A DNA stretch of 64,000 nucleotides. It comes from Atlanticothrix silvestris CENA357 (GTDB lineage: Bacteria > Cyanobacteriota > Cyanobacteriia > Cyanobacteriales > Nostocaceae). The stretch is taken from the NCBI RefSeq assembly GCF_016056295.1, contig NZ_JAECZB010000049.1:1-64000 (forward strand), written 5' to 3'. The position numbers were made by a program, and so were the translations under genes. The notes under the pieces are model-generated. The model had not been told where the DNA came from. It saw nothing but the letters and a program-made list of their open reading frames with translations, and ran no database searches. How positions within the stretch are numbered: the first letter of the stretch is position 1; the number at the start of each line of letters is the position of its first letter. Shown piece by piece: positions 46,496 through 51,306 of the stretch.

Positions 46496-46963
46496 TTAAC
46501 CGAGATTAATTTTTACAGTTTTGTGTTTTTCTGATTCCGCTTTTGGCAGGGTAAGGCGGAGAATACCATTTTGGTATTCAGCTTGCACTTTATCGTTTTG
46601 AATTTGTGAAGGTAACGGAATTACCCGTTGAAATTTGCCATAACGGAACTCAGAACGAGTGACACCATTTTCTTCAGTTTTGGTTTCAGATTTACGCTCA
46701 CCACTAATCGAAATTGATTCGGAAGTCGCTTCTATATTAAAGTCTTGTTTTTCTAAACCAGGTACTTCTAGTTTTAAATGAATCGCATCTTCGGTTTCTT
46801 CAAGCTCAGCGGCAGGAGTAAAGGCAAAGCTCATGCTTTCTCCGCCATCAGTTGGCATTAATCTATCAAATAGGCGATTCATTTGCCGCTGTAAAGTGTC
46901 AATTTCACCGAATGGTTCTAAGCGTTCGATGTCTCGAAATGGTTGCCAACGAATTAGTGCCAT
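46496..46963 (-). CDS. hspA: Small heat shock protein, Hsp20/alpha-crystallin family
   Basis: A 155-residue small heat shock protein that holds unfolded proteins and helps protect thylakoids. The N-terminal MALIRWQPFRDIERLEPFGE and IDTLQRQMNRLFD are typical of cyanobacterial HspA. The alpha-crystallin domain spans about 45-140 with LKLEVPGLEKQDF, and the C-terminal motif IxI is present in HKTVKINLG (VKI). ATG at 46963 follows AGAGGTGATATT; the frame extends to 47011. Repeated palindromic elements upstream (47001-47090) may serve in its regulation. dnaK follows on the same strand after a repeat spacer. Confidence 0.95.
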   Translation of the reverse strand: MALIRWQPFRDIERLEPFGEIDTLQRQMNRLFDRLMPTDGGESMSFAFTPAAELEETEDAIHLKLEVPGLEKQDFNIEATSESISISGERKSETKTEENGVTRSEFRYGKFQRVIPLPSQIQNDKVQAEYQNGILRLTLPKAESEKHKTVKINLG

Positions 46964-47000
46964 AATATCACCTCTTAAATCCACTACTTGTTTTAGGAGG

Positions 47001-47090
47001 CTCAATCTCAAGCTTCTTAGCTGACAGCAAGACAGTAGACTTTACTGCATAAGTATTCAATTTTTTTAAGCTTAATCTTAAGCTTCCTAA
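47001..47090. promoter_or_regulatory. Repeated CTYAATCTYAAGCTTC element upstream of hsp20
   Basis: CTCAATCTCAAGCTTCTTA (47001-47019) and CTTAATCTTAAGCTTCCTAA (47071-47090) are near-identical direct repeats 70 bases apart. The second includes the perfect palindrome AAGCTTAA-TC-TTAAGCTT (47068-47085). They flank the likely promoter region of hsp20. No CIRCE repeat is present. Confidence 0.45.
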
Positions 47091-47343
47091 TTAACACATT
47101 AGATCAATATTAAATGTTAGGATGTTCGGTTTTGTGTCATAAACGATCGCAATAACCGTACCCTAATTATGGTTCATCATTAGTTACAAATCTAGCCAAA
47201 AAATTAAGTAATTAAGCAATATTATCTATAGCCATAGAACTTTTATCTATTTTGAAGTCAAAACATCACTCTTAAGACAGATCCTGATTAGAAGTAATTC
47301 AGATTGAATAAAAAAGACCGTGTATGCATACGGATGAATCTTC

Positions 47344-50300
47344 ATGAAGCGCGATGTCAATGGTAAGTTTGTCAGCAATTGGGACTCAGAAACGAAAAAA
47401 CGAGTAAGCATATCTCTTACCAATACAGCATGGCGATCGCTGGATGAGGAAGCTCAAAAGCGAGGAATTTCTCGTTCGGAAGTAATTGAACACTTTGCCC
47501 GTAGCCTGGGAAATGAAACTGGAACAAATGCTGAAAACGCTCTACTACAAGCACAAATTATTGAACAGCAGCAAGAAATTGCAAACTTGCAGCGTCAAAA
47601 ACAAGAGTTGTCAGCCCTACTAGAAAACGCTCCAGATGCGATCGCCCGTTTCGATTCGCAAATACGTTACCTGTATGCTAACCGTGTTGCCGAGCAAGCC
47701 CTAGGATTTTCACGAGATGCTCTACTAGGCAAATCCATGTCTGAATTTATGTCAGACCCAATTTACCTGTTCTGGGAAGAGCATTTACGCCAGGTGTTAG
47801 CGACGGCTCAACAACAAGAAATTGAATTTGAATTTGAAACTCCTTTTGGTGTACGCTTCTATCAAGCTCGGTTAGTTCCAGAATTAGATGCCGAAGAAAC
47901 ACCTGTATCGGTTGTAGTCATCAGCCGGGATATTACCGAAACTAGGCAAGCCCAGCAACAATATACCCAACTTATCACTACCCAAGAAACTGAACGTCAG
48001 GTAGCAATGATCCTGGAAAGTATTACGGATGCATTTGTTGCCTTTGATCGCAATTGGTGTTACACCTACATCAATCAAGCGGCGGCGGCCATTCTGCACA
48101 AAACCCCAGAAGAACTACTCGGAAAACACGTTTGGAACGAGGTGTTTCCTGAACTTTTAGGTGGAGTAGCATACCAAAAATTGCATCAAGCAATAACAGA
48201 ACAAGTGTCGGTTGCTTGGGAGGAATTTGGAGAGCCTGTTCAGCGGTGGTTAGAGATCCGTGCTTATCCATCTGCTGAGGGTGTAGCAGTCTATTTTCGT
48301 GATATCACAAAGCGCAAACAAGCTGAAGCAGAACAGGAACGGTTGCTATATGAACTAGAAACTGAACGCACTCGATTTGAAGCAGTTTTGCGACAAATGC
48401 CAGCAGGCGTGATGATTGCCGATGCAGCATCTGGCAAGTTAGTTTTGGCAAATGAGCAAGCCAAACAGATTGTTGGGTACAGTTATGAACAGTTACTTAA
48501 GCTGGAAGACTATAAACTCATTATTCCATTTGAAGCCTTTCGCTCTGACGGACAGATTTACACCGCTGATGAGTATCCATTGGCGCGATCGCTGCAAACA
48601 GGTGAAGTAGTTTATAACGAAGAAATAGAGCTACATCAAAATGATGGCAGCCAAATTTTGATCAATGTCAATTCTGCACCTATTCTTAACCATCAAAATC
48701 AGATTGTGGCAGCCGTTGTCATCTTTGAAGATATCACCGAGCGCAAACAAATCGAAGCAGAGCGATCGCGCGCCGAAGAAGCACTACGAGAAAGTGAGGC
48801 TCGGCTGCAACTGGCGCTGAAGGTTGGCCGCATGGGAATATGGAATTGGGACATGCAGACTGGCAAAATTCTTTGGTCAGAAAATCACTTCACAATTTTA
48901 GGTCTGCAAGTAAATGAGCGCGAACCCAGTTACAAACTTTGGGCAGATCAAGTGCATCCTGACGATTTAGCTACAACAAAGGCAAAAATTAAAGAAGCGA
49001 TCGCCGAAAAAAAAGAATATCACCACGAATATCGTCTGCGTTGGTCAGATAATTCTATTCACTGGGTAGAAGTCAGAGGACACTTTACTTACGATTCTCA
49101 AGGAAATCCTCAACATTCAACTGGTGCTGTAATTGATATTACAGAACGTAAGCAAGCAGAACAAGAACGGGAACAATTGTTAGAGCGAGAATATATTGCT
49201 CGGACTCAAGCAGAAGCTGCACAACGTCAACTGACAAACATTTTTGAAACCTCACCAGTGGGAATTGCTCTGTTAGATGCCCAGCAGCGGTTTATTGCCA
49301 TTAATGAAGCATTAGCCCAAATCAACGGATTAACCCGTGAACAACATTTATGGCATTCAATTCCAGAAATTTTTGGTCAATCCGATCCCCAATTAGTTGC
49401 AGTCTTTGACGACATTTATACTACAGGTAATTCCTTTATTTCACCCAACTTTGCTGTCAACGTTCCTGGACGTAGCCATCGCTCCCCCGGCTACTACAAC
49501 GTTTACTATCTGCCAACAATCAACTCCAACCATCAAGTGGAAGACGTTTTAATATATGTCTTAGACGTGACAGAGCGAGTACGGTTAGAGCAGGGGCAAC
49601 GCTTTTTGTCAGAGGCGAGTGCAGTTCTGTCCTCTTCCCTCGATTATCAAACTACCCTAGAGCAAATAGCACAGCTAATTGTTCCCGAATTAGCGGATTG
49701 GTGTACGGTTCATATCGTGGAAGAGGATGGTTCAATCGAACAAATTACTGTTGCTCACATTGATCCTGCCAAACTCCAATGGGCGCAACAAATCAGCCGT
49801 AAATATCCTCTTGACCCTGATGCTGTTCGCGGTGCTGCATTGACATTACGGACAGGAGAATCGGATATCTTGCCACATATTCCAGATGAATTGCTCGTGC
49901 AGGCAGCCCGTGATTCAGAACATTTAGAAATTTTGCGGCAGGTTGGGTTTAAATCGGTCATAACAGTGCCACTACGAACCCAAGCGCGAATTTTAGGTGT
50001 AATTTCCTTTATTTCAGCTGAATCTGGGCGGCAATATGATTCAACTGATTTGCAATTAGCAGAAGAACTAGCTCGCCGTGCCTCCTTAGCGATTGATAAT
50101 GCCCAGTTATACTGGGTAGCGCAACGCGATCGCACTAAAGCAGAATCTGCCAACCGAGTTAAAGACGAATTTCTAGCCGTACTCTCCCATGAATTGCGAT
50201 CGCCTCTCAATCCGATTCTAGGCTGGACAAAAATGCTACGAAGTAAGCGGTTAGATGCCGCAAAAACTGACCAAGCTTTAGAAACAATTGAACGCAATGT

Positions 50301-51306
50301 GAAACTGCAAGCGCAATTAATTGAAGACTTATTAGATGTCTCACGTATTCTGCAAGGAAAAATGACGTTAAACGTCGCTCCTGTGAATTTAGCGGCAACA
50401 ATTGCAGCAGCCTTAGAAACGGTACGACTGGCAGCAGATGCCAAGAGCATTCAAATTAAAACTAATCTTAACTCAGTTTCCGGAACGGTTTCAGGCGACA
50501 TGAACCGTTTACAACAGGTTATCTGGAACCTGCTTTCTAATGCCGTGAAGTTCACACCATCTGGAGGACGAGTCGAGGTACAACTAAGGCAAGTTGGTAT
50601 GTATGCTCAAATTCAAGTTAAAGACACAGGTAAAGGCATTAACCCAGAGTTTTTACCATACGTATTTGAGTACTTCCGCCAAGAAGATGGCACAACAACA
50701 CGACAATTTGGCGGATTGGGATTAGGATTGGCGATCGTCCGCCATTTTACTGAACTGCATGGAGGAACTGTTGAGGCCAGCAGTCCGGGACTGAATTTAG
50801 GGGCAACATTCACCGTTCGTTTACCGTTAAATGTTACTGAGCAGCAGCTATTGTCTGATGACAGCGATTTAGAAACTGTGACAGATCTGGCAGGTATTCG
50901 TATATTGGTTGTGGATGATGATGCAGATATCCGGGAGTTGTCAGCATTTATCCTCACACAAGCTGGCGCACAAGTTACAACAGCCGCTTCGGCAGTACAA
51001 GCATTGGTACTATTAAATCAGTCTGTCCCTGATCTATTACTGTGTGATATTGGTATGCCAGAGATGGATGGCTATGCTCTAATTCGGCAAATTAGAAAGT
51101 GGTCACATAAACAAGGAGGAACCCTTCCAGCGATCGCACTTACTGCTTATGCCGGAGAAATAAACCAGCAACAAGCTTTAACTGCGGGATTTCAAATGCA
51201 TATTCCAAAGCCTGTTGAACCAGAAATGTTAATGCAGGCGATCGTCCAATTGCTTCATCCCATTGAGCAAAACAAATCATTAGCAAGTGACAACTCTGAC
51301 TGCTAA
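47344..51306 (+). CDS. Hybrid histidine kinase with N-terminal ribbon-helix-helix domain, PAS domains and GAF
   Basis: A 1320-residue soluble hybrid kinase. Residues 1-55 (KKRVSISLTNTAWRSLDEEA, then KRGISRSEVIEHFARSL) look like a ribbon-helix-helix (CopG/Arc-type) DNA-binding domain, then a short coiled coil. About five PAS/PAC units follow (about 85-200, 215-330, 340-480, 490-625, 640-765), then GAF (about 775-920), HisKA with H949 in VLSHELRSPLN, an ATPase domain with GGLGLGLAIV, and a C-terminal receiver with D1235 in LLCDIGMPEMDG. No transmembrane helix is seen. The fusion would let the sensor bind DNA directly. No partner regulator gene is next to it. A CCGTGTATGCATACGG near-palindrome lies upstream. 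Confidence 0.92.
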   Translation: MKRDVNGKFVSNWDSETKKRVSISLTNTAWRSLDEEAQKRGISRSEVIEHFARSLGNETGTNAENALLQAQIIEQQQEIANLQRQKQELSALLENAPDAIARFDSQIRYLYANRVAEQALGFSRDALLGKSMSEFMSDPIYLFWEEHLRQVLATAQQQEIEFEFETPFGVRFYQARLVPELDAEETPVSVVVISRDITETRQAQQQYTQLITTQETERQVAMILESITDAFVAFDRNWCYTYINQAAAAILHKTPEELLGKHVWNEVFPELLGGVAYQKLHQAITEQVSVAWEEFGEPVQRWLEIRAYPSAEGVAVYFRDITKRKQAEAEQERLLYELETERTRFEAVLRQMPAGVMIADAASGKLVLANEQAKQIVGYSYEQLLKLEDYKLIIPFEAFRSDGQIYTADEYPLARSLQTGEVVYNEEIELHQNDGSQILINVNSAPILNHQNQIVAAVVIFEDITERKQIEAERSRAEEALRESEARLQLALKVGRMGIWNWDMQTGKILWSENHFTILGLQVNEREPSYKLWADQVHPDDLATTKAKIKEAIAEKKEYHHEYRLRWSDNSIHWVEVRGHFTYDSQGNPQHSTGAVIDITERKQAEQEREQLLEREYIARTQAEAAQRQLTNIFETSPVGIALLDAQQRFIAINEALAQINGLTREQHLWHSIPEIFGQSDPQLVAVFDDIYTTGNSFISPNFAVNVPGRSHRSPGYYNVYYLPTINSNHQVEDVLIYVLDVTERVRLEQGQRFLSEASAVLSSSLDYQTTLEQIAQLIVPELADWCTVHIVEEDGSIEQITVAHIDPAKLQWAQQISRKYPLDPDAVRGAALTLRTGESDILPHIPDELLVQAARDSEHLEILRQVGFKSVITVPLRTQARILGVISFISAESGRQYDSTDLQLAEELARRASLAIDNAQLYWVAQRDRTKAESANRVKDEFLAVLSHELRSPLNPILGWTKMLRSKRLDAAKTDQALETIERNVKLQAQLIEDLLDVSRILQGKMTLNVAPVNLAATIAAALETVRLAADAKSIQIKTNLNSVSGTVSGDMNRLQQVIWNLLSNAVKFTPSGGRVEVQLRQVGMYAQIQVKDTGKGINPEFLPYVFEYFRQEDGTTTRQFGGLGLGLAIVRHFTELHGGTVEASSPGLNLGATFTVRLPLNVTEQQLLSDDSDLETVTDLAGIRILVVDDDADIRELSAFILTQAGAQVTTAASAVQALVLLNQSVPDLLLCDIGMPEMDGYALIRQIRKWSHKQGGTLPAIALTAYAGEINQQQALTAGFQMHIPKPVEPEMLMQAIVQLLHPIEQNKSLASDNSDC

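Follow-up and report, generated by a model that had tools for sequence, protein, structure and literature searches.

The stretch of DNA analysed here (the window; 64,000 nucleotides of Atlanticothrix silvestris CENA357, contig NZ_JAECZB010000049.1) encodes on its forward strand a hybrid histidine kinase of 1320 residues (open reading frame 47344-51306, open for 1320 codons from the ATG at 47344) that begins with a predicted ribbon-helix-helix (RHH) domain of the CopG type. Upstream of this gene lies a 16-bp imperfect palindrome with CCGT...ACGG arms, CCGTGTATGCATACGG (47318..47333, + strand), a putative operator that ends 10 bp before the start codon. An in-frame TGA three codons (9 nt) upstream of the ATG makes an earlier protein start impossible. 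The conservation of the head and of the palindrome suggests that the RHH head binds this site at the start of its own gene and controls transcription of that gene, probably by repressing it, a reading to which we assign a probability of about 0.72. If true, a kinase with a repressor-type head and a single dedicated site at its own gene would represent a compact feedback design, and the site offers an experimental handle in the form of one 16-bp probe, one promoter and many homologues.

The palindrome was first noticed through its sharing with the upstream regions of relatives. A single pattern-based scan across 84,980 species genomes returned 63 loci; residues 1-55 of the kinase are matched by 50 of these (L034-L083), which together with the window form the set of 51 loci used for the site counts. 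Four of the 50 lack a full kinase frame, L045 and L082 running off the contig and L076 and L078 ending early. A site scoring 14-16 of 16 against CCGTKTAYGYATACGG was found in 50 of the 51 loci (39 score 16, seven score 15 and four score 14), the lone exception being L083, whose upstream region contains no site (best score 8/16). In 33 loci the site ends 10 nt before the ATG and in 15 loci 11 nt before it; gaps of 12 and 22 nt occur in one locus each. Among 19,208 random 60-nt stretches taken from the same loci none reached 14 and 58 reached 12. The information content, computed with similar sequences down-weighted (effective number 19.9), is 1.65 bits for the site columns and 1.91 for the CCGT/ACGG arms, against 0.61 for the 10-nt spacer and 0.55 for fourfold-degenerate codon positions.

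The same palindrome could instead act in the RNA, as a hairpin of the 5' leader that controls translation and has nothing to do with DNA binding by the RHH head. The window site indeed folds, with a 6-bp stem and a 4-nt loop (-6.1 kcal/mol; z -2.57 for 20 nt and -1.87 for 41 nt), but pair 5-12 is lost in 12 of the 50 sites and pair 6-11 in four, and none of the four outer pairs shows a change in both partners. In the loop, the sequence itself is conserved at positions 7 (A in 49/50) and 9 (G in 46/50); Rfam gave no match at the site itself, and a hairpin leaves the pairing of the site with an RHH head unexplained. We regard this explanation as very unlikely, and an RNA leader element was rejected: it folds weakly, but the pairs that vary do so without preserving the pairing.

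Two further conserved blocks precede the site. A promoter-like hexamer, TTGAAT (47304..47309, + strand), precedes the operator by 8 bp, reaches 1.7 bits in columns -14..-9 relative to the site, and is a possible -10 element. The second block, AAGACAGAT (47274..47282, + strand; columns -44..-36, up to 1.2 bits), may be an activator site or a -35 region. A consensus promoter scan of the coding strand gave no sigma-70 match.

The distribution of the site in whole genomes points to a single location. In the genome of the strain itself, a slightly looser pattern allowing up to one mismatch matches nowhere but at the kinase start. A search of 291 genomes of the order with the strict pattern gave 16 occurrences, all before a start of the RHH-kinase type, with no match of the control pattern; the gap from the strict site to the RHH N-terminus match is 10 nt in 15 of these cases and 11 nt in the other. 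Two of the 16 loci have unusual frames: in G026 the RHH head and the kinase are on two successive frames, the first of them short, and in G205 the frame has 427 codons. A protein search of the same 291 genomes retrieved 23 RHH loci with E below 1e-14, and the seven without a strict site carry variants scoring at least 12. When 386 genomes of the phylum (partly overlapping the 291) were searched with the strict pattern, five sites were found, three of them at RHH starts (G000 and G021, already in the order count, and G415, which is locus L034). A looser pattern gave 17 matches in 22 carrier genomes, including one at G055:C47, and 17/17 lie at RHH-kinase-type starts. A plasmid locus of Kovacikia minuta, found after the pattern had been fixed, carries an exact site, CCGTTTATGTATACGG, 11 nt before an ATG; the N-terminus encoded there is 76% identical, its frame stops after 357 codons, and the promoter-like block is, by eye, absent from the upstream flank. 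Head and site are thus paired almost one to one, and, judged from these matches, the likely target is one self-site and not promoters in general.

A head that controls a wider regulon through degenerate sites, self-control being one role among several, is a competing possibility. When up to two mismatches are allowed, matches do appear elsewhere in the genome of the strain, two of them near-palindromic (C40:77078 and C37:52312). However, their numbers (12 forward and 12 reverse) lie below those of a reversed-pattern control (26 and 29). Since two-mismatch matches are rarer than in the control, there is no genome-wide enrichment in this genome; a genome-wide regulon was dropped on this ground, and we consider broader control through degenerate sites, which suits the single-target pattern less well, unlikely.

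The head (residues 1-55; 47344..47508, + strand) comprises an N-terminal arm, MKRDVNGKFVSNW, followed by the RHH domain proper, and its assignment is based on Pfam, on predicted structure and on conservation. The RHH_1 model (PF01402) matches residues 20-49; its score is 21.9 bits when the whole protein is searched and 26.1 bits for the first 70 residues alone, in both cases above the gathering score of 20.5 bits. In a profile search of the PDB with 48 homologous N-termini, the antitoxin Rv0298 (E 7.6e-4) and CopG (E 0.009) were retrieved, and the lower matches (E 0.02 and above) were of mixed kinds, among them RHH proteins and designed helical ones. The alignment places KKRVSISL of the kinase (residues 18-25) on KKRLTITL of CopG, so that the strand residues R20, S22 and S24 are in register with R4, T6 and T8 of CopG, which we take to be DNA-contacting residues. 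The AlphaFold2 model of residues 1-59 contains helices 27-40 and 44-57 (mean predicted local distance difference test score, pLDDT, 85), and the top Foldseek match of this model is CopG (E 0.08, probability 1.00, TM-score 0.78 by target length). Further matches with E <1 are MatP, HicB, MazE, NikR, AmrZ, TacA, CopASO, YiiF and 9kkd (StnY), and Arc follows lower in the list; all of these from MatP to YiiF are, like CopG, presumably RHH proteins. None of the best 50 of the 97 Foldseek matches has E <0.001, which we attribute to the shortness of the chain. Segment 18-25 is in the CopG strand register, yet it is unpaired in both AlphaFold2 models, each of which is monomeric.

The first-pass annotation had proposed a CopG/Arc-like RHH pattern in the first 55 residues and had named structure prediction as one way to check it; the palindrome escaped its notice. 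The prediction, run for residues 1-59 as a monomer, returned a fold that matches CopG best in the PDB, and an RHH fold for the first 55 residues is supported by profile and model alike. A decayed or chance domain without function in the kinase would agree with the modest RHH_1 scores, an E of 0.01 being reached by 24 and missed by four of 28 full-length members. This alternative is barely credible, as the N-terminus is well conserved and CopG comes first in Foldseek: 15 of 59 columns are invariant across the 48 N-termini, the full-length mean column identity being 43%. Residues R3, G7, F9, K18, T26, S43, S45 and E46 are identical in 51/51 loci, W13 in 50/51 and R20 in 49/51. Loci L056, L065 and L068 were left out of set A4, and sets A2 and A3 comprise 35 and 28 of the 51 loci, respectively.

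Some RHH domains also make protein contacts, as in antitoxins, and another regulator of the gene family could occupy the site while the head serves for dimerization or protein contacts. The retention of the site in L137, L138 and L139, which have other kinase cores, would fit this explanation. We consider it unlikely: the looser pattern is found nowhere else in the 22 carrier genomes, which would be unusual for a regulator with other targets, the arm and strand residues are nearly invariant, and loss or change of the site tracks altered strand residues in three loci. Thus, L083 (R20A, S22N) has no site, and neither has L135, whose degenerate head (RHH_1 E 0.011, below the cut-off) shows by eye R20T, S22Q and S24A. 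In L025 (R20A, S22R) the site is altered to CCGTATGGCCATACGG, a perfect palindrome with a changed centre. Besides these, L136 is without a detected RHH head and without a site, though its core falls inside the main clade of RHH-kinases (see below).

Leptolyngbya sp. FACHB-8 contains four RHH-kinases (L044, L054, L074 and L083), with sites in three of them, two of one type and one changed, and none in the fourth; these paralogues represent a natural test for cross-talk.

The kinases are wider spread than first assumed. All 50 loci are cyanobacterial according to their record titles; the earlier expectation of a lineage pattern in Nostocales is too narrow, RHH-headed loci of the genome scan including Leptolyngbya, Microcoleus, Phormidium, Nodosilinea and Trichocoleus. 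Other hybrid histidine kinases of the order, in which no RHH head was detected, have a related core (54-65% identity for the 18 cores L156-L173), and the core of L136 is 80.5% identical to that of the window kinase over 375 residues; in the 291-genome sample the strict site was seen nowhere but at RHH-kinase-type starts. A tree of the HisKA-to-receiver core was calculated by a careful method from 86 rows, 52 with head (L135 counted) and 34 without, leaving out the partial cores of L040 and L058. The label for absence of a head denotes no listed match at E 1e-3, which strongly decayed heads could escape (G069 has one weak match), and 15 extra rows of this set were labelled without a row-by-row check.

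In this core tree, a single clade with support 100/100 unites 41 RHH-kinases with L136, and the remaining RHH-kinases are scattered among kinases without the head; the starred branches force at least seven label changes. A single origin of the RHH-kinase core was rejected, one clade being recovered in 0/200 bootstrap trees. A quick tree gave 11 off-clade RHH-kinases (L067, L074, L077, L083, L135, L137, L138, L139, L140, L141 and L150), in all of which except L083 and L135 the site is kept; single placements are unsure owing to long branches (e.g. L139 with L179). The surroundings of the gene vary as well. No conserved neighbour gene was found at 47 loci, the largest cluster of frames of at least 90 aa spanning nine loci; within 1 kb, and with frames of at least 40 aa, the largest cluster spanned eight (first-named member 678 aa). 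Gene neighbourhood was consequently discarded as a clue to function. Since the site is retained across scattered kinase cores and varied neighbours, head and site appear to have stayed together while bodies and surroundings changed, which, if true, shows a DNA-binding domain and its operator remaining together on changing signalling proteins.

In four loci (L141, which is G026:C70, and L078, L076 and L194) the RHH frame stops early, after 67, 137 or 357 aa, with the site retained; L141 has a kinase frame of 1072 aa downstream of the short one. These early-ending frames may be true splits, decay or assembly errors.

The proposed mechanism places the RHH domain itself on the site as a pair of dimers, each of which would occupy one CCGT half-site. 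The 12-bp spacing of the CCGT and ACGG arms suits two adjacent RHH dimers, and two kinase dimers per site would follow from this arrangement. Repression is suggested by the position of the site, downstream of the promoter-like hexamer and ahead of the start codon. Signals perceived by the PAS and GAF domains could reach the head through a predicted long helix that joins the RHH domain to the first PAS domain (residues 61-94; 47524..47625, + strand), loosening or tightening the binding. This helix runs into the first PAS domain in an AlphaFold2 model of residues 1-205 (block pLDDT 69 for residues 61-70 and 90 or more from residue 71), for which all 50 Foldseek matches listed are PAS or sensor proteins, and it is a plausible route from sensing to DNA binding. 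If binding depended on the signal, the signal state would set the amount of kinase. A fuller version, in which the signal gates the head at its single operator to set kinase dosage, with head and operator forming a portable cassette on several kinase bodies, is put forward tentatively; such a cassette, if true, would be a self-tuning input module for two-component signalling across cyanobacteria.

Several points weigh against self-control by the head. We infer direct binding and an effect on expression from sequence, and that sensing is coupled to DNA binding is purely inferred. The site could be occupied by some other factor, and activation in place of repression is conceivable. Two-mismatch matching in the window alone is within chance, 14 of 100 shuffles giving as many matches. 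The strict pattern was built from loci of the very kind that it then counted, and the site counts are not fully independent, since G415 and L034, and likewise G026 and L078, are the same records. In the phylum sample the exact sites of G480 and G527 have no RHH start in the stretch translated, and the control also gave two matches. The site is also kept in L023 and L074, which have Q20; an arginine at position 20 is therefore not a strict requirement. Finally, covariation between residues and bases is weak (smallest p 2.9e-5 in 1196 tests) and confounded by ancestry. Such covariation was dropped as proof of direct contact, its significance being too low.

The remainder of the protein is described here with its Pfam assignments. 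The PAS region (approximately residues 93-742; 47620..49569, + strand) contains five PAS_4 stretches and is followed by a GAF domain (PF01590, residues 767-917; 49642..50094, + strand). The HisKA domain (PF00512, residues 940-1004; 50161..50355, + strand) carries the phospho-acceptor H949 in SHELRSP, and the HATPase_c domain (PF02518) occupies residues 1051-1163 (50494..50832, + strand). At the C-terminal end, the receiver domain (PF00072, residues 1187-1300; 50902..51243, + strand) has its phospho-acceptor D1235 in LLLCDIGMP. The motifs of a hybrid histidine kinase are complete, with H949, the N and G boxes NLLSNAVKF, DTGKGI and GLGLGL, and receiver residues D1191/D1192, D1235 and K1289; the earlier description of the protein as a hybrid kinase is borne out by these residues and by the HisKA, HATPase_c and receiver matches.

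Histidine kinases normally reach DNA through a separate response regulator, or through a fused one in the hybrid two-component systems (HTCS), whose DNA-binding domain is of the AraC type and C-terminal. CopG-type RHH repressors and antitoxins, for their part, are small and in many cases come with a partner toxin gene. The window kinase resembles CopG, the Rv0298 antitoxin, MazE and TacA in the RHH fold, the strand register and the palindromic site at its own start region, but here the domain heads a 1320-residue kinase and no partner gene is conserved: a conserved adjacent toxin gene, as expected of a type II antitoxin, was not found across the 47 loci. In the HTCS of Bacteroides, described as membrane sensors (PMC11253607), histidine kinase and DNA-binding regulator share one chain, as kinase and DNA-binding domain do in this protein, although here the latter is an N-terminal RHH domain instead of a response-regulator transcription factor. 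The kinase gave no HTH_AraC match in Pfam, and its sensor domains are PAS and GAF.

A closer parallel is PutA, described as a large enzyme whose N-terminal RHH domain is an autogenous transcriptional repressor and whose function switches with a signal (PMC5293562). The kinase is likewise a big enzyme with an N-terminal RHH domain, and the self-control proposed for it, probably repression, would be as in PutA. PutA, however, is a proline-breakdown flavoenzyme that represses the put regulon; the protein studied here is a hybrid histidine kinase without any proline dehydrogenase or P5C dehydrogenase domain in Pfam, and in the genomes sampled across the order its strict site was found at no gene but its own. 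The section of the cTFbase survey of 2007 concerned (PMC1858693) devotes one clause to CopG-family proteins fused to signalling domains in cyanobacteria. The present fusion may be among these, and CopG-type fusion to signalling domains is thus already in print as a class, without details; that section gives no pairing of family and domain, names no such protein and mentions neither an operator nor self-control. No self-site or self-control by such a kinase was found in the open-licence PubMed Central literature. What appears to be new is the combination, in a histidine kinase, of a repressor-type head with a putative self-site dedicated to it, the parts being of known kinds.

RHH-like segments were also seen in other proteins. 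A TetR-family protein of the same genome (L002:808-1683, at C111:79410) and those of L026-L033 have a C-terminal RHH-like segment of the type seen in the kinase, which includes the arm RxxxGKF; in L002, TetR_N and TetR_C_7 are above the cut-off and RHH_1 (E 0.019) is below it. Shortly after the stop codon of these TetR-family genes, TATACATG is present in eight of nine loci (twice in L030 and L031), and the post-stop element takes the form TATACATGG in seven of nine. In several cyanobacteria, proteins of approximately 370-770 aa (L142-L149) combine an N-terminal RHH-like segment with long glutamine-rich repeats, seen by eye, and a C-terminal LNKWR motif in six of eight. A small stand-alone RHH-like frame of 67 aa with SRSELIETMAR is encoded in the genome of the strain at C63:5153-5284 (L003). 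In the window itself, a weak Rfam match to the Avalong 5' untranslated region (UTR) thermometer was recorded at 46958-47089 (- strand; 35.1 bits against a gathering score of 154, E 2.4e-5), and it overlaps the start of frame 46496-47011 (- strand), an apparent small heat-shock protein.
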